DNA of 64,000 nt from positions 930,001 to 994,000 of the forward strand of contig NC_089452.1 of the NCBI RefSeq assembly GCF_026210795.1. Direction: 5' to 3'. A model generated the notes under the pieces. That model searched no databases, had not been told where the DNA came from, and saw only the letters and a program-made list of their open reading frames with translations. This document shows, piece by piece, positions 9,328 through 46,949 of the stretch. Positions within the stretch are counted from its first letter, which is position 1. Every line of letters starts with the position of its first letter. The position numbers and the translations under genes are program-made. The stretch comes from Rhizophagus irregularis (taxonomy: Eukaryota; Glomeromycota; Glomeromycetes; Glomerales; Glomeraceae).

Positions 9328-11898
9328 TAGGGATTGGAATCGATTAATCGAAAATCGACAAAACATAGTAAAATCGATTCTCGAGAATCGATTCTCAGCA
9401 ATTTTTAAAACACTAAAAGATTTGTTAGTTGCCGATCGTACTAAAATAGAAAAGCTTGATTTGAAATGTATTTATATAATCAGCAAATCAATACCAAAGA
9501 TGGGGGATCAGCATCTTAAAATGGAAATCACTCAAAAACTAATCTTATGTTAACGTTAAGTTAACGTTAACCTATCATGACATGTCAATCATTTCAAGTC
9601 ATAACAATAACGTGACGAGCCACCCACCCACCCATAGGGTGATATTGCACTTATATAGAATGATCTTTCTTGCTTAAAAATTATGGGATAAAATTTTTAG
9701 CAAATCATGTGAAAACTGAATAATTTTTTTGTTAGCCAAAAATGATCAACAACCGGATGACAAATTTTAATATTATGTAAATAAACAATTTGTTTGTATT
9801 ACTTATTTAAATATAGATACATTTTTTTTTTTATTTTGAACCAAAAAATAAACAATAATCAAATGGTAAATTTTCATTATCGTCGTCATTACATTATCGT
9901 TATAATTAAAGTTCCCTGCCGAAATTAGGGAGTTTCGGCATGTCAAAATTGTCAAACCTATTTTGACATGTCAAAATTGTCGAAACCTAAAAATATTACA
10001 TTTCACGTAATAACTCGGCGTCCAATGATCATAGAAAGATGCACCATAGCTCGTTGGAATCGTCTCATAACGACGAGTCGAATGGTGGCTAAATCGTCTT
10101 TCTACGATCACTGGATGCCGAGATATTAAGCGAAACGTCAAAAATCGGCATTTTGTATTTTGCGATACTGCGCCATTTGACGTTTCACTTAATAACTCGG
10201 CATCCAATGATCGTAGAAAGATGCACCATAGCTCGTTGGAATCGTCTCATAACGACGAGTCGAATGGTTGCTAAATCGTCTTTCTACGATCACTGGATGC
10301 CGAGATATTGAGCGAAACGTCAAAAATCGGCATTTTGTATTTTGCGCTACTGCGCCATTTGACGTTTCGTCTATTATCTCGGCATCCAATGATCGTAGAA
10401 AGATGATTTAACCACCATTCGACTCGTCGTTATGAGACTAATCCAACGAGCTATGGTGCATCTTTCTACGATCATTGGATGCCGAGTTATTAAGTGAAAC
10501 GTCAAATGGCGCAGTATCGCAAAATACAAAATGCTGATTTTTGACGTTTCGCTCAATATCTCGGCATCCAGTGATCGTAGAAAGACGATCTAACCACTGT
10601 TCGACTCGTCGTTATGAGACGATTCCAACGAGCTATGGTGCATCTTTCTACGATCATTGGACGCCGAGTTATTACGTGAAACGTAATATTTTTAGGTTTC
10701 GACAATTTTGACATGTCGAAACTATTTCGGCATTTCGGCATTTCTACAGGTTTTAGTTTCGACATTTCGACAATAGCCTGTAGAGTTTTGGCAGGCAACT
10801 TTAGTTATAATGCTATCATGAAAATTTTTTCAGGGTAGTAATTCTAAAAATGATTAACAATCAGATAATAAGATTGTTGTTTTATTATAATGTTATCATA
10901 AAAATTTTTTTTTCTCAACAATTGGATAATAAAATTAAATAAATGTTATATCAAGTAATTTTTTATTTTGAAACAAAACAATAAACAACAACTAAATGGT
11001 AAAATTTCATTATCATTGTCTTATTATTATGATATTCAGTTATCATAATTTTCCAGAACTAAAAATGATCAACAATCGGATAGTAGAATTGTTTTATTAC
11101 AATATAATCATGAAAAATTTTTTTCCAGAGCCGTAATTCCAAAAATGATGATAGTAAATATTAAATAAATGCTTTATCAAGTAATAAACAATCTTTCTGT
11201 ATTGTTATTTAAAGTTAATCACATATTCTGATATATATATTTTTTTATTTTTAAACCAAAAAATAAACAACAATCAAGATAATTAACCTTAAAATGATTA
11301 ACAAGTGAAATAACTAAGCCAAAAATGATTAACAAGCAAAATAAACCGAAAATGATCATCCTTTACCAAATGAGAAAAAAATTATGTTAATAGCTAGTTA
11401 AGAGTAATTTCTCATTTTTTTTTATAGATATGTTAAATATAATCAAAAATTTTGCAAATAAAGTGAAGTTATGGTTTGGCTAGAAAAGCCCGGCGAGCGA
11501 AGCGAGCCAAATGAAATTGCATCATCATAATAAATCACATGAATATTTAATACACAATCACATGATCTACCAGTAATTTTTCCACCAGTTAAAATTTAGA
11601 AATTCTCTTTAAATCTTAAAAACTATTTATCATAATAATTATGATACTGTATAGTAGTATAAACCAACTTAATTAAAAAAAAAGTCAGAATTATTACAGT
11701 TCTAATTATACTATGACTATAGCTCCCTGCCATGTTTAATGTTAACTTGTTTACATATAAGTTAACCTGACTTCAAAGTAATTTTTCATGCCGGCCAAGT
11801 GCTGATTATTTTTGCTGAAATTAGAAACTGATTCAAAGTCAGGTTGGTCGTCTATAAGAAAAATCTTGAAAAGATTCGATTTTCGATTCCAATCCCTT
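9328..11898. mobile_element. hAT-type element, 2.6 kb, non-autonomous (family C, copy 1)
   Basis: The left end TAGGGATTGGAATCGAT and right end (reverse complement AAGGGATTGGAATCGA) form terminal inverted repeats. They are flanked by the 8-bp duplication AAACAAAT (9320-9327 and 11899-11906). The same termini border the 442-bp element at 22482-22923. The interior holds the inverted-repeat satellite at 9900-10810 and degenerate direct repeats of an AATGATCAACAATC-type motif around 9680-9860, 10840-11030, 11040-11180 and 11280-11360. No transposase frame is visible. One mismatch in the terminal base of the right end is the weak point. Confidence 0.78.
9900..10810. repeat. Large inverted repeat made of a 180-bp satellite unit
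   Basis: Four copies of a unit containing CTCGGCATCCAATGATCG lie as two direct (about 10013-10130 and 10195-10315) and two inverted copies (about 10378-10490 and 10557-10670), centred near 10375. The outer ends, TTATAATTAAAGTT and its near complement, are also inverted. Similar-looking open frames on the minus strand across it merely repeat the satellite and are not genes. The transcript would fold into a long hairpin. Confidence 0.85.
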
Positions 11899-13185: not shown

Positions 13186-14744
13186 TTACACATTTTGAAT
13201 ATTTAAAAATAAATTAATACCCGAGTATTCAGAATAATCTTTGCTTTTTACGTTATCATCAATTTTCAATTGAGAAATATCGATTTGTAAGGATTCTATT
13301 TAAAAAATTCTGTTAAAAATCTTTTCACAATTAATTTGAATATTTTATTTATCAATCATATACCTGAAGATTCCATGCTTATTATATTATCATTTTCTTC
13401 ATAATAATCATCAGAATTTTTTGGTTCGGGAAGATTATTATAATTAAGTAATCTACTTGAATAAGAAGCACCTGAATGTGATTTATATGATAATCCTAAA
13501 CTAGTTGAAGGTATATTACTCATCGATAAATTATTATTTGCTTTTTCTGATTCTTCAATTTGTATTTGTAATTCTGTAGTCTGACTATCATTTCGCTTAT
13601 CATACCACTCGCGCAAAATTTTATAAAGTTCATTTGCTGTTGGCCGATTTAATGGATTTGCATCCAAGCATCTTTTAATTAAATGCACAATCAATTGAGG
13701 CACTTTAATATCAAATATTGGTCTAAGTCCTTGACAAATTCTTATTGCTAAATTTTCATCATGCCCTATGTTATAATATGGAGGTAATCCAGAAATTACT
13801 TCGTACATAATTATACCAAAACTATAAATATCAGCAGCAGTAGTATAACTTTGTCCTTGTAAATTTTCAGGAGCCATATAAGGTAAATTGCCATATATAC
13901 TGTTTTTTGAAATTTCTGATGTATTGTAATTAGCAGGTCTACATAATCCCATATCACTTATATAAATACGTGTTTGACTCTTATAAAGTATATTTCCGAT
14001 ATGAAAATCTCGATGAATCAATCCATTTTTATGGAAAAGATTAAGTCCATATGCAATAATCCATAAACAATTAATCTTATCATACCAATTTAATTGCCTA
14101 TAACTCTCATCTAAAAACTTTCGTAAACTTCCATTTTCTGCAAAATTCATTACCATTATATAATTTTTTGTTTTTGGATCTTGAGTTATTCCATAAAATT
14201 TAATAACAGAATTTAAAAGATCATTTACTTTATAATGCAATGTAATCTACAAATAAATAAAATACATTATTAAAAGTAAAATTTTATAAATTTACAAATC
14301 ACTTAATTATAGTACCTCATTCATGAATTCCAATGTAACATTCTCTGAATTATTTAATCTTTTCAGGGCCACATATTTATATTGATCTTTTCTTCTCCAA
14401 TTTTGTTTTTCACTATCCCAATACCAAATATAACCATCAAGCCAAGTTGCTCTAAAGATTTCACCAAACCCACCTTTAGCAATATATTTAATATCATAAA
14501 ATCTATCATAAGATATCCATTCAACTGCCTTTGATACTTCATAATCAGAATGTATTGATAACTGAGTATTTTGAATGAATTTATCTATATCATGATTACC
14601 ACTGGTCCAATTTTTAAAATTTCGTTGAAAATATTTTGCAATACATATAAAATTACAATTCTCACATATGTTGCTCAAAACCAATAAATAAGTCTTGGTT
14701 TCTGGATCCTGAGTTATTCCATAAAATTCATATTCTCTTTTAAT
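13186..14744 (-). CDS. Protein kinase, 3'-most N-lobe unit plus full catalytic domain
   Basis: Three exons in frame: 14744-14316 (N-lobe unit 8), 14246-13364 and 13295-13186, with GT-AG introns between. The first exon has the WTSGNxDIDKFI signature, a glycine loop GGFGEI and the lysine motif VALK. The second has HRDF with the downstream Asn (HRDFHIGN), SDMG in place of DFG, MAPE and the DIYSFG motif. The third adds 36 residues after an Asp/Ser-rich tail. The family is the tyrosine-kinase-like kinases abundant in glomeromycotan fungi, presumed Ser/Thr or Tyr protein kinases. The exon at 14744 has no Met of its own before the kinase signature and is joined in phase 0 to upstream N-lobe exons, so the true start probably lies upstream. 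Unit 8 is the only N-lobe copy with an intact glycine loop. Confidence 0.75.
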
Positions 14745-14813
14745 CTACAAATGTAATACTAAATAAGATAAAAAAAAATATTTGTAATTTTGTTAATAAT
14801 AAGCTTATCATAC

Positions 14814-15230
14814 CTTATTTGCAAATTCTAATATATTTTCTGGAGTATTAAAACCCTTCAAATTCACAGCCATATTATGATCTTTTTTCCAATTTTTATT
14901 TTTATTATCCCAACTACTTATATTCCCATCAATCCAAATTGCTTTATACACATTGCCAAACTTATCATTTGCAATATATTTGACATCATTAAATTTGCCA
15001 TATGAAATCCATTCTAGTACTTTATCTGTATTTTTGTGAGCTAATAACTGAGTATCTTGAATAAATTTGTCAATATCATCATTACCACTAGTCCAATCTT
15101 TAAATTTATATTGAAATTGTATTACATAACATGCATAATTACATTTTTTGCAAATATTATTCAAAACTAGCATATAACTTTTTGTTTCTGGATTTTGAGT
15201 TATTCCGTAAAATTTATGTTGTTCTTTAAT
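14814..15230 (-). CDS. Kinase N-lobe exon, tandem unit 7
   Basis: A 139-codon exon bounded by an AG acceptor (just upstream of 15230) and a GT donor (just below 14814), both in phase 0. It opens with the exon-2-type segment FYGITQNPETK and then continues into a zinc-ribbon-like CKKC and the WTSGNDDIDKFIQ signature. The glycine loop has decayed to NDKFGNV, while the Lys in the NLKGF position remains. An independent start at the internal Met is possible but would lack a promoter of its own. Confidence 0.6.
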
Positions 15231-15299
15231 CTACAAATGTAATGCTAGTAAGAGAAAATAAAAATATTTATAATTTTGTTAATAAGTTTATTATTATAC

Positions 15300-15698
15300 C
15301 TTATTTGTAAATTCTAATGTAAGATTTTCTAGAGTATTTAAACTCTTCAACTTCACAATCATATTACAACGTTGTCTTTTCCAATTTTGAATTTTATCCC
15401 AATAATTTATATATCCATCAATCCAATTAGCTCTATATATTTCACCAAACTTATCTTTTGTAATATCTTTAATATCATGTAATCTGTCATAAGGTATCCA
15501 TTCTAATGCTTCCTTTGTATTATTAGAATGCTGAGTATCTTGAATAAATTTGTCAATATCATCATTACCACTAGTCCAATCTTTAAATTTATATTGGAAT
15601 TGTATTGCGTAACATGCATAATTACATGTTTTGCATATCAAAACCATCATATAATTTTTTGTTTCTGGATTTTGAGTTATTCCACAGGGCTTATTTAT
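15300..15698 (-). CDS. Kinase N-lobe exon, tandem unit 6
   Basis: A 133-codon phase 0-0 exon between consensus splice sites. It begins with a changed lead segment (INKPCGITQ instead of EFYGITQ) shared with unit 5, so units 5 and 6 derive from a common recent copy. The loop reads KDKFGEI and the lysine lies in VKLKSL. It is slightly shorter than the other units because of small deletions before the EWIPYDR motif. Confidence 0.6.
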
Positions 15699-15765
15699 CT
15701 ATAAATACAAATATATTGGTAAAAATTAAAACAACTAAAATTTTATTAAATGACAATTATTATAC

Positions 15766-16176
15766 CTCATTTGTAAATTCTATTGTAATATTTTCCAAAT
15801 TATTTAAACTTTTCAGAATTATATCTTTATTTCCATCTCTCATCCAATATTGATCTTCATTATCCCAATTATTTATTTTTCCATATATCCAATTTGCTTC
15901 AATATATACTTGTGTTTCTGCAATATATTTGATATCATCAAATTTGTCATAAGGTAACCATTCTAGTATCTTATTTATACTATTGTGAGCTAATAGTTGA
16001 GTATTTTGAATAAATTTATCAATATCATCATTACCACTAGTCCAATCTATGAATTTACGTTGAAAATGTATTGAATAACATGCATATTTGCATTTTTTGC
16101 ATATATTATTATTATTCAAAACCATCATATAATTTTTTGTTTCTGGATTTTGAGTTATTCCACAGGGCTTATTTAT
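15766..16176 (-). CDS. Kinase N-lobe exon, tandem unit 5
   Basis: A 137-codon phase 0-0 exon with intact acceptor and donor. The lead segment is INKPCGITQ. The glycine loop is deleted and replaced by AETQVYIEANW, a change shared only with unit 4. The Lys in IILKSL is kept. ATP binding in the usual way is unlikely, so this unit may act, if at all, as a structural or binding module. Confidence 0.6.
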
Positions 16177-16244
16177 CTATAAATACAAATCATATATTAG
16201 CAAAATTAAAGCAACTAAATTTTATTAAATGACAATTATTATAC

Positions 16245-16649
16245 CTCATTTGTAAATTCTATTGTAATATTTTCCAAATTATTTAAACTTTTCAGAATTA
16301 TATCTTTGTTTTCATCTCTTATCCAATTTTGATTTTCATTATCCCAATTATTTATTTTTCCATCAATCCAATTCGCTTCAATATATACTTGTGTTTCTGC
16401 AATATATTTGATATTATCAAATTTGTCATAAGGTATCCATTCTAGTACCTCATCTGTATTGTTGTGAGCTAATAATTGAATAACTTGAATAAATTTATCA
16501 ATATTATCATTACCACTAGTCCAGTCTATGAATTTATGTTGAAAATGTATTGCATAACATACATAATTACATTTTTTGCATATATTATTCAAAACCATCA
16601 TATAATTTTTTGTTTCTGGATTTTGAGTTATTCCACAGAGTTTATTGGT
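16245..16649 (-). CDS. Kinase N-lobe exon, tandem unit 4
   Basis: A 135-codon phase 0-0 exon with intact splice consensus. It shares the loop replacement AETQVYIEANW with unit 5. From this unit down to the stop at 13186 all exon junctions are in phase 0, so units 4-8 plus the kinase exons form one continuous frame of about 1,017 codons. No obvious initiator precedes it. Confidence 0.6.
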
Positions 16650-16724
16650 CTATAAACATAAATATATTAGTAAAAATTAAGCCTTACAATTTACAAAGTA
16701 TTACTAATAATAAAATTATTATAC

Positions 16725-17134
16725 CTGTTATTTGTAAATTCCATTGTAATACTTTTTAAATTGTTTAAACTTTTCAGAATTACATCTTTATTTCCATCCC
16801 TTATCCAATTTTGACTTTTATCACTCCAATATTTTATATATCCATCAATCCAATTAGCCCTATATTCATCTTTTGTAATATGTTTAATATCATACAATCT
16901 GTCATAAGGTATCCATTCTAATACTTCATCTGTATTGTTGTGAGTTAATAACTGAGTATTTTGAATAAATTTGTCAATATCATCATTACCACTAGTCCAA
17001 CCTATGAAATTACGTCGAAAATATGTTAAATTACAAATATGATCACATTTTTCACATATATAATCCAAAACTATCATATAAAATTTTGTTTTTGGATCCT
17101 GAGTTATTCCATAAAATTTATGGCTTTTTATAAT
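16725..17134 (-). CDS. Kinase N-lobe exon, tandem unit 3, donor shifted
   Basis: Similar to the neighbouring units but the exon end reads AATAACAG before GT, where others have AATGAG or AATAAG. The exon is therefore 410 bases (phase 2) and splicing into unit 4 would give a stop within eight codons. The loop region is also shortened (TKDEYRANW). This unit interrupts the long frame, unless it is skipped; skipping would keep the frame because all other units are multiples of three. Confidence 0.55.
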
Positions 17135-17203
17135 CTATAAATTAAAAATATATTAGAAAATAAACATTTATAAATTTTGTTAAATAATAACTGAAGCTTA
17201 TAC

Positions 17204-17611
17204 CTTATTTACAAATTCTAATGGAGTATTTAAACTCTTCAAATTGACAATTATATTATGATTTCTTTTCCAATTTTTATTTTTATTATCCCAGTTAATT
17301 ATATTTCCATTAATCCAAATTGCTTCATACACTTTGCCAAACTTATTCTCTGCAATATATTCAATGTTGCATAATTTATCATAATGTATCCATTCTAGTG
17401 CTTCTTCTGTGTTATAATGAGCTGATAGCTGAGTATCTTGAATAAATTTATCAATTATATTATTATCACTGGTCCAATTTTCAAAATTTTGATAAAAGTG
17501 CGTTGCATTACATATTTTGTTACACTCTTTACATTTATTGTTAACAACCATCATATAATTTTTTGTTTTTGGATCCTGTGTTATTCCATAAAATTCGTGG
17601 TTAATTTTAAT
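17204..17611 (-). CDS. Kinase N-lobe exon, tandem unit 2
   Basis: A 136-codon phase 0-0 exon with good splice sites. The lead is IKINHEFYGITQDPKTK. The block from there through the EALEW motif is almost identical to unit 1, after which the two diverge, a mosaic that suggests gene conversion or recent unequal crossing-over. The loop reads ENKFGKV. Confidence 0.6.
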
Positions 17612-17676
17612 CTATAAATACAAATGTAATAATACATTAGTAAAAATTAAAATATTTATCAAATAATTTTATTTAC

Positions 17677-18099
17677 CTTATTTATAAATTCTAACGTAAG
17701 TTTTTTTGGAATATTTAAATTCTTCAAATTCACAAACATATTATGACCTTCTCTTTCCCAATTTTGATTTTTATCATCCCAATAATTTATATATCCATTA
17801 ATCCAATTAGCTCTATATACTTCGCCAAACTCATCTGTTACAATATATTTAATATCATCAAATTTGTCATAAGGTATCCATTCTAGTGCTTCTTCTGTGT
17901 TATAATGAGCTGATAGCTGAGTATCTTGAATAAATTTATCAATTATATTATTATCACTGGTCCAATTTTCAAAATTTTGATAAAAGTGCGTTGCATTACA
18001 TATTTTGTTACACTCTTTACATTTATTGTTAACAGCCATCATATAATTTTTTGTTTTTGGATCCTGAGTTATTCCATAAAATTCGTGGTTAATTTTAAT
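17677..18099 (-). CDS. Kinase N-lobe exon, tandem unit 1
   Basis: A 141-codon phase 0-0 exon, the most upstream complete unit. The loop reads TDEFGEV and the lysine motif VNLKNL. The 3' part and following intron closely match the truncated unit 0. There is no upstream start exon left because the array is cut at 18211. Confidence 0.6.
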
Positions 18100-18168
18100 C
18101 TATAATATAAATACAAATGTAATAATGTATTAGTAAAAATTAAAAATTTATCAAATAATTTTATTTAC

Positions 18169-42086: not shown

Positions 42087-45000
42087 ATGGCTCAGAGTAC
42101 TAATGATAGGGGTAAAAAGAATATAGTAAAACAAATTGGCAATATAGTAAAACTAGTATCAAGTAAAATCAAGAAATCTAAAGGTAAATATAATATATTA
42201 AAACAAACTGAAATAAAAAATTTATATTTAATGTTTTCATGGATAACTGAAATAAATAATATTCAAAGCTCACAAAGATAGTGCTGATGATGATCATAAT
42301 GATGAACAAAGTTTGGGTAACTATAATTTTTTATAAATTTTGAATAACTTTAAATCTTTTTAATATCTTCATAGATAATTGGAAAATTTTGAAATAAACT
42401 GAATAACTTCTTTATATTTTAATTTGTATGAAGATCCTTCAACTCACAAAGTTGTCTCAAAAAGTTTTGGAAATGCTGATATTTATTATGATGAACAAGA
42501 TTTGGGTAATTATAACTTTGGAAAATTTAGATAGCTTTTAATTTAATATTTTCATGGATAACTGAAATAAATAATATTCAGATGATTATCATAGTAATGA
42601 TGAACAAAGTTTTGGTAACTATAATTTTTTATAAAATTTTAAATAACTTTTCCTATTATTACATAATTGTATAATATTTGAATGTAATTTAAACTAACTA
42701 AATTCTTTATTTAAAAAATTATTTTGTAGATTGTAAGTTAAAAGTTATTTTTTGATTCTATTATTACATAATTGTATAATATTTGCATATAATTTAAACT
42801 AACTAAATTCTTTATTTAAAATTATTTTGTAATTTCTTTTAGTTGGTAAGTTATAAGTTATTTTTTTGATTCTATTATTACATATTCTATTATTACATAA
42901 TTGTATATAATTTAAACTAACTAAATTCTTTATTAAAATTATTTTGTAATTTCTTTAGGTGGTAAGTTATAAGTTATTTTTTGATTCTATTATTACATAT
43001 TCTATTATTACATAATTGTATAATGTTTGCATATAATTTAAACTAACTAAATTCTTTATTTAAAATTATTTCATAATATAGAGAGTAAGTTATTTTTTCA
43101 TTCTATTATTACATAATTGTATAATATTTACATATAATTTAAACTAACTAAATTCCTTATTTAAATTATTTCATAATATAGAGAGTAAGTTATTTTTTGA
43201 TTCTACTATACATAATTGTATAATATTTGCATATAATTTAAACTAACTAAATTGAAATTATTTTGTAATTTCTTTTAGGTTGTAAGTTATAAGTTGTTTT
43301 TGATTCTATTATTACATAATTGTATAATATTTACATATAATTTAAACTAACTAAATTCTTTATTAAAATTTATTTCATAATATAGCACGTAAGTGATTTT
43401 TTGATTCTATTATTACATAATTGTATAATATTTGCATATAATTTAAACTAACTAAATTCTTTATTTAAAATAATTTCATAATATAGGGAGTAAGTTATTT
43501 TTTTATTCTATTATTACATAATTGTATAATATTTGCATATAATTTAAACTAACGAATTCTTTATTTAAAAATTATTTTGTAATTTCTTTTAGGTTGTGAG
43601 TATCATTATATAATTGTATAATATTTGCATATAATTTAAACTAACAAATTCTTTATTTAAAAATTATTTTGTAATTTCTTTTAGTTCGTGAGTATCATTA
43701 CATAATTGTATAATATTTGTATATAATTTAAACTAACTAAATTCTTTATTTAAAATTATTTTGTAATTTCTTTTAGTTGGTAAGTTATAAGTTATTTTTG
43801 ATTCTATTATTACATAATTGTATAATATTTGCATATAATTTAAATTAATTAAATGCTTTATTTAAAATTATTTTGTAATTTCTTTTAGTTGGTAAGTTAT
43901 AAGTTATTTTTGATTCTATTATTACATAATTGTATAATATTTGAATATAATTAAAACTAACTAAATTCTTTATTTAAAATTATTTCATAATATAGAGGGT
44001 AAGTTATTTTTGATTCTATTATTACATAATTGTATAATATTTGCATATAATTTAAACTAACTAAATTCTTTATTTAAAATTATTTCATAATATAGATAGT
44101 AAGTTATTTTTTGATTCTATTATTACATAATTGTATAATATTTGCATATAATTTAAACTAACAAATTCTTTATTTAACAATTATTTTGTAATTTCTTTTA
44201 GTTCGTGAGTATCATTACATAATTATATAATATTTGAATATAATTTAAACTAACAAATTCTTTATTTAAAATTATTTTATAATATAGAGAGTAAGTTATT
44301 TTTTGATTCTATTACATAATTATTGTATAATATTTGCATGTAATTTAAACTAACTAAATTCTTTATTTAAAATTATTTTGTAATTTCTTTAGGTGGTAAG
44401 TTATAAGTTATTTTTTGATTCATTATTACATAATTGTATAATATTTGCATATAATTTAAATTAACTAAATTCTTTATTTAAAATTATTTTGTAATTTCTT
44501 TTAGTTGGTAAGTTATAAGTTATTTTTGATTCTATTATTACATAATTGTATAATATTTGCATATAATTAAAACTAACTAAATTCTTTATTTAAAATTATT
44601 TCATAATATAGAGGGTAAGTTATTTTTGGTTTTATTATTACATAATTGTATAATATTTGCATATAATTTAAACTAACTAAATTCTTTATTTAAAATTATT
44701 TCATAATATAGATAGTAAGTTATTTTTTGATTCTATTATTACATAATTGTATAATATTTGCATATAATTAAAACTAACTAAATTTTTTATTTATAATTAT
44801 TTTGTAATTTCTTTTAGTTGGTAAGTTATAAGTTATTTTTGATTCTATTATTACATAATTGTATAATATTTGCATATGATTTAAACTAACTAAATTCTTT
44901 ATTTATAAATTATTTCATAATATAGATCGTAAGTTATTTTTTGATTCTATTATTACATAATTGTATAATATTTGCATATAATTTAAACTAACTAAATTCT

Positions 45001-46949
45001 TTATTTAAAATTATTTCATAATTTATTCTATTATTATTACATAATTGTATAATATTTGCATATAATTTAAACTAACTAAATTCTTTATTTATAAATTATT
45101 TCATAATATAGCGAGTAAGTTATTTTTTGATTCTATTATTACATAATTGTATAATATTTGCATATGATTTAAACTAACTAAATTCTTTATTAAAACTTAT
45201 TTCATAATATAGCATGTAAGATATTTTTTAATTCTATTACATAACTTTTTATTTGCATGTAATTTAAACTAACAAATTCTTTATTTAATTAATTATTTTG
45301 TAATTTCTTTAGTTTGTAAGTTATAGTTATTCCTATTATTATAATATTGCATATATCATTTATATCATAACTAAATTCTTTATTTAAAAATTTGATTTAC
45401 TTTAGATTCTTGTAAGTTATTCTTTATCATAACATTTGTGTAATATTTTAATTAATTAAATTCTTTATTAAAAATTTTAATTATTTTAGATTCTTGTAAG
45501 TTATTTTTTTATTATTACATTTATGTAGTATCAATTTAAAGTTTTAATTAATTAAATTCTTTTTTAAAAATATTTATGTTTTAGTTGGTAAGTTATAAAT
45601 TATAGGTTTTTATATATATTTAATAAATACTAAGATTTTTTATTTTATTGTATTCCTAATTAAAATTAGAGTAAGTATTAAATTGTTTTTTTAATTTTAA
45701 AATTTGAAATAATTTTATTATAATTTTTAATTTATTATATTATAGATTTGGAAAAAGTGGAAATACAATTTTAGATAAATTTATTTCTAAAAGAAGATTA
45801 AAATGGATTCCTTATGATAAATTTGCAAATGTTGTATATCTTGATAAAGGAGGGTTTAGTACTATATATAAAGCTATTTGGTTAAATATGAATCAAGATA
45901 AAGAAGTAGTTCTTAAACGCCTCAATAATTTGAATGAAAATTTAGATGAATTTTTAAATGAAGTATGATAATCAAAATTATTTTTTTTTTTAATTTTATT
46001 TATTTATTTATACTAATTGCATATTTCAATTTTACTTTTATAGTGGAAATATCATCAAAGTTGTGCAGATTCACATGATATTATTAATTTATATGGATTT
46101 ACAAAAAGTTCAGATACTTTGAATTATATGGTAGTAATGGATTATGCAAATAAAGGTAATTTAAGAGGAAATTTAGTTAAAATAACCAAATATAATTGGA
46201 AACAAAAACTAAATATGTTGTACAAAATTATTTCTGGGCTTTATGAAATACATAAACAAGATCTTATTCACTGTGATTTACATGATGGCAATATTTTAAA
46301 TCACAGCAATAAAAAGGATGAAGAGGAGGAAGAAAATGAAGTTGATAATAATTTAGTTTTTGTTAGTGATTTAGGATTATGTCAACCTATAAAATCATCT
46401 TTAAAAAAAGGTGAAATTTACGGAGTTATACCATTTATGGCACCTGAAATTTTGAGAGGCAAACCTTATACTCAGGCTAGTGATATATATAGTTTTTCTA
46501 TGATTATGTGGGAATTTACATCTGGAGTTTCACCATTTAATGATAGAACACATGATCTTCAACTTAGTTTAAGTATTTGTAAAGGCGAACGTCCTAAAAT
46601 TATTGAAAATATTCCAAAATGTTATATGGAGTTGATGAAAAAATGTTGGAATGAGGATCCATTAAAAAGGCCATCTGTATCAGAAGTGAAATATATTATT
46701 GGAAATTGGATTTTTCAGCCTTTTAGTAATGACATTAATGAAGAATTGGAAAATAGCAAAATGGAATTTATAAATGCACAAATTGGGTATAACAATCTTA
46801 CTACTGAATGTCATCCACAAGCATGTTATACAAGTCGTCTGCTTAATTTTACTAGTAAAAAATTGAATGAAATGCTTGAAAGTGAAGATTCACAAAGTTA
46901 TTTTTCTACTGGTATTACTGAAGACTTGAATGAATATTTAATTATATGA
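42087..46949 (+). CDS. Protein kinase with N-terminal charged exons and a giant modular intron region
   Basis: Supported exons: 42087-42183, 42269-42316, 42434-42505 and 42582-42614, all joined in phase 1, then after the array 45746-45962 and 46044-46949. The N-terminus is basic, followed by Asp-rich repeats (DDHNDEQSLG and DDYHSNDEQSFG). The kinase part has KGGFSTI, VVLKRL, HCDLHDGN (46269-46292), SDLG, MAPE and DIYSFS. HRD is HCD, so it is a non-RD kinase with the catalytic Asp kept. An acidic insert EEEEE lies between the catalytic loop and SDLG. Direct joining of exon 42614 to 45746 is out of frame; joining through the 3-base gaps of the array plus the 1-base gap at 45670 is in frame (about 487 aa). 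Alternatively the kinase starts from another promoter and 42087-42614 is a separate gene. Confidence 0.65.
42615..45745 (+). repeat. Tandem array of intron-like modules with 3-base exon-like gaps
   Basis: About 28 modules of roughly 80-115 bp. Each has GTAAGT (or GTGAGT), a conserved body (ACATAATTGTATAATATTTG, then TTTAAACTAACTAAATTC) and an acceptor of one of two kinds, TTTCTTTTAG or TCATAATATAG. Between one acceptor and the next donor lie exactly 3 bases in 26 cases (first at 42730-42732, last at 45585-45587), 6 bases in two cases (45405-45410 and 45490-45495) and 1 base at 45670. The conserved CTAAC resembles a branch point, about 30-50 bases before the AG. A module near 45000-45040 lacks the splice pair. 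A sub-block of several modules is repeated at about 43890-44095 and 44510-44713. Confidence 0.93.

Follow-up and report, generated by a model that had tools for sequence, protein, structure and literature searches.

Chains of putative single-codon exons between tandem introns in an expanded kinase family of Rhizophagus irregularis

We examined a 64,000-nt stretch of the Rhizophagus irregularis genome (assembly GCF_026210795.1, contig NC_089452.1, positions 930,001 to 994,000 of the forward strand; hereafter the window, with positions counted from its first base) that contains a protein kinase gene interrupted by a tandem array of introns with, in most cases, three bases between one intron and the next. 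Our hand-built model of this gene has 36 exons on the + strand and a 472-amino-acid (aa) open frame running from an ATG at 42087 to a TGA at 46949. The product matches the kinase profiles PF07714 (E = 1.2e-42, residues 131 to 387) and PF00069 (E = 1.8e-37, whole protein). As described below, similar arrays recur across a family of kinase genes, and the genomic sequence strongly supports reading them as chains of coding exons of a single codon each.

The stretch from the donor at 42615 to the acceptor at 45745, which lies within the one gene, has 29 junctions that fit [T/C]AG-gap-GTRAG. The gap measures 3 nt at 26 of these junctions, 6 nt at two (both ATTCTT), and 1 nt at one (A, 45670), in agreement with the initial annotation, which had described an array of about 28 intron-like modules with these same gap counts. 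At five junctions the letters AG-AGA-GT or AG-AGG-GT allow an alternative reading with the later AG and a 1-nt gap; we took the first AG throughout. Where a deletion has removed one module boundary, a single fused intron of 183 nt remains. Phase 1 applies to exons 1 to 5 and to every microexon of 3 or 6 nt. The features of the gene are given below; the microexons up to 45587 come from the junction scan and the gene model.

42087–46949, + strand: whole gene model, 36 exons, 472 aa, ATG to TGA
42087–42111, + strand: exon 1, MAQSTNDR, ends in phase 1; homologous ATG exon is 3n+1 in 21/21 loci
42157–42183, + strand: exon 2, VSSKIKKSK, 3n, phase 1-1; 3n in 14/14 loci where found
42269–42316, + strand: exon 3, 3n, phase 1-1; acceptor AAAG picked by eye
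42434–42505, + strand: exon 4, 3n, phase 1-1; acceptor GAAG picked by eye
42582–42614, + strand: exon 5, ..DEQSF, ends in phase 1; from the gene model
42615–42729, + strand: first array intron, chimeric by eye, 5' part like the upstream introns and 3' part like the array introns
42730–42732, + strand: microexon ATT
42843–42845, + strand: microexon TTG
42959–42961, + strand: microexon GTG
43082–43084, + strand: microexon AGA
43182–43184, + strand: microexon AGA
43279–43281, + strand: microexon GTT
43386–43388, + strand: microexon CAC
43487–43489, + strand: microexon GGA
43593–43595, + strand: microexon GTT, next donor GTGAG
43685–43687, + strand: microexon TTC
43777–43779, + strand: microexon TTG
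43889–43891, + strand: microexon TTG
43996–43998, + strand: microexon AGG
44096–44098, + strand: microexon ATA
44202–44204, + strand: microexon TTC
44288–44290, + strand: microexon AGA
44393–44395, + strand: microexon GTG
44505–44507, + strand: microexon TTG
44612–44614, + strand: microexon AGG
44712–44714, + strand: microexon ATA
44818–44820, + strand: microexon TTG
44926–44928, + strand: microexon ATC
44929–45111, + strand: fused intron of 183 nt; one module has lost its acceptor, codon and donor by deletion at ~45000–45024, from the sequence
45112–45114, + strand: microexon CGA
45213–45215, + strand: microexon CAT
45313–45315, + strand: microexon TTT
45406–45411, + strand: microexon ATTCTT
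45490–45495, + strand: microexon ATTCTT
45585–45587, + strand: microexon TTG
45670, + strand: terminal 1-nt exon A, middle base of a split Glu codon; present in 36/38 arrays
45746–45962, + strand: kinase exon 1 (FGKSGNTILDKF..), from protein search, gene model and kinase profile match
46044–46949, + strand: kinase exon 2, to the TGA, from the gene model and PF07714/PF00069 match

In the predicted spliced message, the end of exon 5 (GATGAACAAAGTTTTG) is joined to the microexon string ATTTTGGTGAGAAGAGTTCACGGAGTTTTCTTGTTGAGG, the predicted microexon codons begin ATTTTGGTGAGAAGAGTTCACGG, and the 3' junction would read ATTCTTATTCTTTTG + A + ATTTGGAAAAAGTGG. The single A at 45670, with the G before it and the A after it, forms a Glu codon (G|A|A) spread over three exons and enters the kinase frame. 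Predicted peptides include SFLVEDIQSVEDIDPTF. An earlier suggestion that the chained gaps give about 30 codons with zero stops is upheld by the joined 472-aa frame.

To describe the arrays beyond this gene, we compiled two batches of loci (L001 onward for those outside the window). Batch 1 comprised 14 arrays, namely, the window and L001 to L013, with L012 cut before the array end. After four off-array calls were dropped (one in L005, one in L008, and two in L009), it held 687 junctions: 662 of 3 nt, 8 of 6 nt, 2 of 9 nt, 1 of 8 nt, and 14 of 1 nt, 13 of the last being terminal. Batch 2 comprised 17 further loci fetched after our predictions had been fixed in writing. Its gap count uses 15 of them, leaving out L017, which is apparently decayed (an in-frame TGA in the kinase by eye, terminal donor gone), and L030, which has few modules; these 15 arrays gave 528 junctions (506 of 3 nt, 5 of 6 nt, 1 of 8 nt, and 16 of 1 nt, 15 of them terminal). 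Across the 29 arrays of both batches, 1183 of 1187 nonterminal gaps were multiples of three. The array introns (n = 1138; mean, 97 nt; range, 63 to 148) fell almost evenly into the three length classes modulo 3 (380/370/388). Thus, indels in the introns did not come in steps of three, and the 3n rule belongs to the gaps and not to the repeat.

The same spacing stood out genome-wide. In the 146,748,485 bases and 32 contigs scanned, the exact pattern TAG-N{k}-GTAAGTTAT occurred 3772 times at k = 3, compared with 35, 40, and 119 times at k = 2, 4, and 6, while reversed-pattern controls gave 55, 62, 110, and 58 matches at k = 2, 3, 4, and 6. A scan with a free gap of 0 to 14 nt and two acceptor types returned 291 and 34 matches (controls, 1 and 0); among the 134 matches listed, the gap was 3 nt in 130, 6 nt in two, 7 nt in one, and 10 nt in one, the last overlapping a gap-3 reading. 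The initial annotation had argued that gaps in multiples of three, with varying letters, are not expected of a neutral satellite. The exact three-base pattern fits 760 of the 1168 three-base junctions in the examined arrays, and by rough extrapolation the genome may hold ∼5,700 three-base junctions in total.

A protein search with the kinase exon found at least 150 matching places (150 scored of 185 candidates), a minimum for the size of the family. Eight kinase paralogs (L032 to L039), picked by hand for a kinase-exon match outside the arrays then known and not part of the 1187-gap count, all carried an array with the terminal A, with 11 to 35 three-base gaps in the fetched pieces. A search for arrays outside kinases yielded L040, another kinase, whose kinase exon carries an insert, and L041, which has three junctions and no recognized kinase exon; the latter is a weak case, as the same motif search missed the kinase exon of L015, L017, L030, and L040. 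The published R. irregularis DAOM197198 assembly, GCA_026210795.1, has 146,773,001 bp in 32 scaffolds, and a kinase expansion to 2,533 genes is described for this fungus; the portions of that paper available to us make no mention of tiny-exon chains (PMC10234402).

The splice sites bordering the gaps were well kept. CTAA[CT] was present in the branch-point region of 70% of array introns, against 20% after shuffling. To find divergent modules, we locally aligned sequence to known ones with neither AG nor GT required. This replaced a caller blind to AG and GT, whose 1025 calls had scattered gaps because it accepted shifted low-complexity matches in AT-rich DNA. Among well-aligned divergent modules of batch 1, AG-3nt-G[T/C] was kept in 54 of 60 and broken in 6, with eight GC donors, every one GCAAGT; in batch 2 (L017 and L030 included), 64 were kept and 1 was broken. 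A terminal 1-nt exon was found in 13/13 arrays of batch 1, 15/17 of batch 2, and 8/8 of L032 to L039, that is, in 36 of 38, L017 and L030 being without it. Among the predictions fixed for batch 2, those for the 3n rule, stop depletion, and the form of GC donors were borne out, and that for the terminal exon held in 15 of 17. A zero-nucleotide recursive site would have a zero-gap AG|GT, whereas the array gap is 3 nt. The zero-gap calls that we inspected had other origins: TAG-AAG-GTAAGT read from the nearest AG in L036, ordinary 5' exon ends in L035, L037, and L039, an unrelated tandem-exon locus in L017, and a site past the kinase exon in L009.

Some loci had features of their own. Bases 1 to 1950 of L017 (C4:4619500-4621450) form a separate tandem locus of exon-like units of ∼50 nt, each flanked by a T-rich acceptor and a GTGAGT donor; this locus bears no relation to the kinase array. 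Some modules of L008 (C2:1349500-1358000) combine a GTAAGC donor with a G-rich gap of 8 or 9 nt, and two of these modules sit in repeated runs separated by ∼1.7 kb; a single G distinguishes the 8-nt from the 9-nt form, a difference that would put the reading out of frame. In L023 (C15:963500-968500), an end cassette of CTT, TTG, and a 1-nt exon occurs twice, the 1-nt G of the first copy being followed by AAC CTT TTG A. The kinase-exon insert of L040, with a short repeat at both ends, and an insert rich in GGTCGGTCA within the final intron of L039 each resemble mobile insertions.

The reading phase is fixed from both ends of the array. An ATG exon was matched by regular expression upstream of the array in 21 of 39 loci, always with a length of 3n+1 (21/21), and exon 2, found in 14 of 39, was always 3n (14/14); the 3' kinase exon begins A|TTT GGA or a close variant and needs two upstream bases. 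Together these demand phase 1, the phase that the initial annotation had named for a chain of 3-nt exons. In the 12 clean batch 1 arrays, we counted 1 phase-1 stop across microexon boundaries, against 14.3 ± 3.1 when microexon order was shuffled, and in the 13 clean arrays of batch 2, 1 against 17.4 ± 3.2, with 0 of 5000 shuffles as low in either batch. Stops in phase 2 were not depleted (59 versus 52.8 in batch 1 and 87 versus 77.6 in batch 2). This test excludes the frame-shifted L004 and L008 as well as L017, L023, L030, and L031, in which phase-1 stops number 7 for L004 with its T exon in or 1 with T skipped, 0 for L008, L023, and L031, and 1 each for L017 and L030; all 14 batch 1 arrays together have 8, against 19.2 ± 3.7.

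Codon usage points to the same phase. With 27 kinase exons as the yardstick, 23 of 25 arrays scored highest in phase 1. The true microexon order scored ∼7 standard deviations above shuffled orders in phase 1 and not in phase 2. Many array starts encode A-L-x-[D/N]-W-F or a variant, each codon being shared by two microexons (T|GG for W, CTT or CTC for L); this start is missing from the window, L001, L015, and L022. The phase-1 segment is 10.5% R, 9.2% F, 9.2% D, 7.0% W, and 5.8% Y. We had also entertained phase 0, raised by the variability of the third gap base and by zero stop triplets in batch 1, and rejected it: batch 2 has two TGA triplets, the flanking exons on both sides give phase 1, and codon usage favors phase 1.

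The microexon letters varied more than the introns around them. With one half of the intron sites used to pair modules and the other half to score them, intron sites differed in 9 to 13% of pairs and gap bases 1, 2, and 3 (g1, g2, and g3) in 23 to 32%, 11 to 22%, and 35 to 45%, respectively. These bases are codon positions 2, 3, and 1 in phase 1, so that amino-acid-changing sites are 2 to 5 times more variable than introns and codon position 3 about 1 to 2 times. Our expectation that g2 would vary about as much as introns was only loosely met (batch 2, 18 to 21% versus ∼10%). In a harder control, with modules paired on one side of the gap and scored on the other, introns differed in 26 to 29% and gap bases in 44%, 27 to 28%, and 54 to 56%, and gap bases 1 and 3 remained ∼1.5 and 2 times above introns. 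The pair alignments are ungapped, so indels push the intron figure up; zeros at AG and G1 arise partly by construction because the caller requires AG and G[TC]; and nearest-pair rates that choose pairs on the same flanks are biased, for which reason the held-out versions are to be used. The pattern fits diversifying selection on the microexon codons; it may also reflect introns that change more slowly or are homogenized, or an effect tied to the final position of the exon.

On these grounds we consider it very probable that the arrays are chains of coding exons, constitutive or optional and almost always one codon long, lying between tandem ∼97-nt spliceosomal introns in an expanded kinase family. 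Several observations weigh against this. With all 3-nt exons skipped, exon 5, the A, and the kinase exon also join in frame, so that inclusion of the microexons is read from selection and not seen, and genome searches found no intronless copy to serve as an internal check. Frame-breaking gaps occur in 4 of 29 arrays (a 1-nt T in L004, a G-rich 8-nt gap in L008, an extra 1-nt G in L023, and 8 nt in L031), two phase-1 stops persist in the 25 clean arrays (L002 and L016), and the order-shuffles leave out tandem duplication of module runs. The third gap base is the most variable (g3 > g1 > g2), as a phase-0 reading would also give, and differences confined to g3 are slightly enriched for phase-0-synonymous changes (46 of 62, with 39.1 expected). 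Finally, long spacings without a recognizable junction make up 17 segments in batch 1 and 20 in batch 2 (with L017 and L030). An intronless candidate at C17:245730 (L014) was a chance match within an unrelated stretch.

If the 3-nt gaps were mostly skipped, the array would be one long intron with internal splice sites, removed recursively or in nested fashion, and only the terminal 1-nt exon would be needed. The in-frame junction of exon 5, A, and the kinase exon suits such a scheme, as does the likeness of the junctions to recursive sites in all but the 3 nt; it would nevertheless leave unexplained the 3n gaps, the stop depletion in one phase, the order-dependent codon usage, and the split codons at array starts, and we regard it as unlikely. 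Recursive splicing of one long intron had been among the options raised initially, but in its usual form it does not fit well because stepwise use of AG|NNN|GT leaves NNN in the message, unlike a true zero-nucleotide site. Another of those options, a satellite of duplicated introns, holds for the origin of the array, as tandem introns with one codon apiece, and is improbable as a noncoding satellite. The modules are plainly tandem duplicates, with gap letters that by eye go with intron type, as a 3-nt spacer kept by shared descent alone would predict. Yet indels have spread intron length over all classes modulo 3 while the gaps stay 3n, 54 of the 60 divergent modules have intact splice sites, GC being the change tolerated at the second donor base, stop depletion is confined to one phase, and arrays were present in all eight kinases picked regardless of arrays, so descent alone is a very improbable explanation. 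Near-identical introns with a constant 3-nt spacer could also recall mobile introners, each a separate insertion whose 3-nt target-site duplication forms the gap. Here most of the intron-like matches listed, viewed as a list and not hit by hit, seem to cluster in arrays and not to lie singly in unrelated genes; gap letters go with the type of intron, and multimodule duplications are visible in L008, L009, and the window; we give this explanation scarcely any credence. The chain of 3-nt phase-1 exons, the remaining option of the initial annotation, appears to be the best fit to our tests.

For such a chain of single-codon exons, we propose that each ∼97-nt intron would be recognized by intron definition and removed stepwise or in any order, with the codons retained. 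Removal of an intron would make its codon the new end of the upstream exon and place the next donor 3 nt further on, and a stepwise 5'-to-3' order would avoid the crowding of two splice sites 3 nt apart. Splicing from any donor to any downstream acceptor that precedes the terminal A would keep the frame, which could give many frame-safe isoforms. The arrays may have expanded by tandem duplication of "codon + intron" units, and unequal exchange between look-alike introns would let them grow or shrink by whole codons with the frame intact. In the window, L008, and L009, some codons recur in runs that resemble the outcome of such exchange. A broader proposal, to which we attach about an even chance, is that at least 150 kinase genes of this fungus carry some ∼5,700 single-codon exons that act as codon cassettes, in which the introns would be a conserved recombining scaffold and the exons hypervariable under diversifying selection, with frame-safe diversity arising in the genome by unequal exchange and in RNA by free skipping.

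The encoded segment lies between a short N terminus (of MGQC or MAQS type) and the kinase, and its two ends often read A-L-x-[DN]-W-F and ..F-E-FGK. It is predicted to span ∼20 to 78 residues and is rich in R, D, F, W, and Y. It may be a fast-changing interaction or recognition segment, and its composition seems more like that of a binding segment than of an inert linker. By inspection alone, with no signal-peptide program, no hydrophobic signal-like stretch was seen in the N termini (MAQSTNDR.. or MGQC..). The predicted proteins of L009, L013, L016, L019, L027, L035, and L037 start with MGQC, and those of other paralogs start with MAQS or MAHS; we take the MGQC start to be a possible signal for N-myristoylation plus palmitoylation.

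Genes with many very short exons are known from other lineages, and two groups, in schistosomes and aphids, come closest in layout. Schistosome micro-exon genes (MEGs) have exons of 6 to 81 bp (3 to 81 in the abstract), the majority 15 bp and 10 to 20 per gene, mostly in multiples of three and with the central ones alternatively spliced; their introns span 0.1 to 5 kb, their products are secreted, and raised dN/dS is mentioned (PMC10526429). From what that source gives, the R. irregularis arrays share the many very short, mostly 3n exons with MEGs and differ in their one-codon exons, up to 70 or more per gene, their ∼97-nt tandem-copy introns, and their kinase product. Taken broadly, a micro-exon gene has a long run of internal exons far shorter than 51 nt and mostly 3n; with its 29 predicted microexons, the window gene would be one, while its 3-nt exons and the mean intron of 97 nt place it outside the MEG family as delimited by exons of 6 to 81 bp, mostly 15 bp. 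Aphid bicycle genes likewise have many microexons, with almost all internal exons in phase 2 and rapid divergence, and megacycle has more than 100 microexons (PMC9168663). As far as this account extends, many microexons, a single dominant phase, and fast divergence are common to both systems, whereas bicycle products are putative secreted effectors, and arrays of look-alike introns with single-codon exons are absent from its available text (PMC9168663). Exons 2 to 5 and the 3n microexons here are in phase 1, unlike the phase-2 internal exons of bicycle genes. Bicycle exons are also longer than the codon-sized exons of R. irregularis. Spliceosomes do include isolated 1-nt or 3-nt exons, as in Arabidopsis APC11 and VPS55 and Drosophila homothorax (PMC4674806, PMC8831610). 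Those are lone tiny exons between ordinary exons, whereas the R. irregularis arrays would be chains. Tandem-repeat recognition genes with hypervariable codons, such as those for the repeat domains of fungal NLRs, are also amplified in tandem and concentrate their variation in a small number of codons. Their repeat unit is coding; here the repeat unit is an intron carrying one codon. Among the open-licence papers listed for microexons in Rhizophagus, fungi, and arbuscular mycorrhiza and for single-codon or 3-nt exons, none was listed as reporting chains of such tiny exons, which is not proof of absence.

If spliced as read, these arrays would place thousands of adjoining 3-nt exons in one genome, challenging the assumed minimum exon size and calling into question steric limits on neighboring splice sites. 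A large part of the expanded kinase family of a key plant symbiont would then likely be misannotated because aligners and gene finders easily drop such small exons. The layout, in which part of each kinase would be encoded codon by codon, is extreme; standard annotation probably misses it, and fast protein change may follow. It would also provide a system for studying how introns speed protein evolution, since recombination between introns would alter the protein by whole codons. Long-read RNA exists for R. irregularis DAOM197198 (PMC10234402).

Elsewhere in the window, positions 13356 to 18100 on the − strand hold about eight tandem copies, with a period of 479 bp, of a ∼140-aa unit (..DWTSGNDDIDKFIQ..EWIPYDKF..); a fuller C-terminal portion of a kinase comes after them. 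The unit presumably resembles the N-terminal part of R. irregularis-type kinases. Positions 10001 to 10684 contain a 182-bp tandem repeat in about two to three copies.

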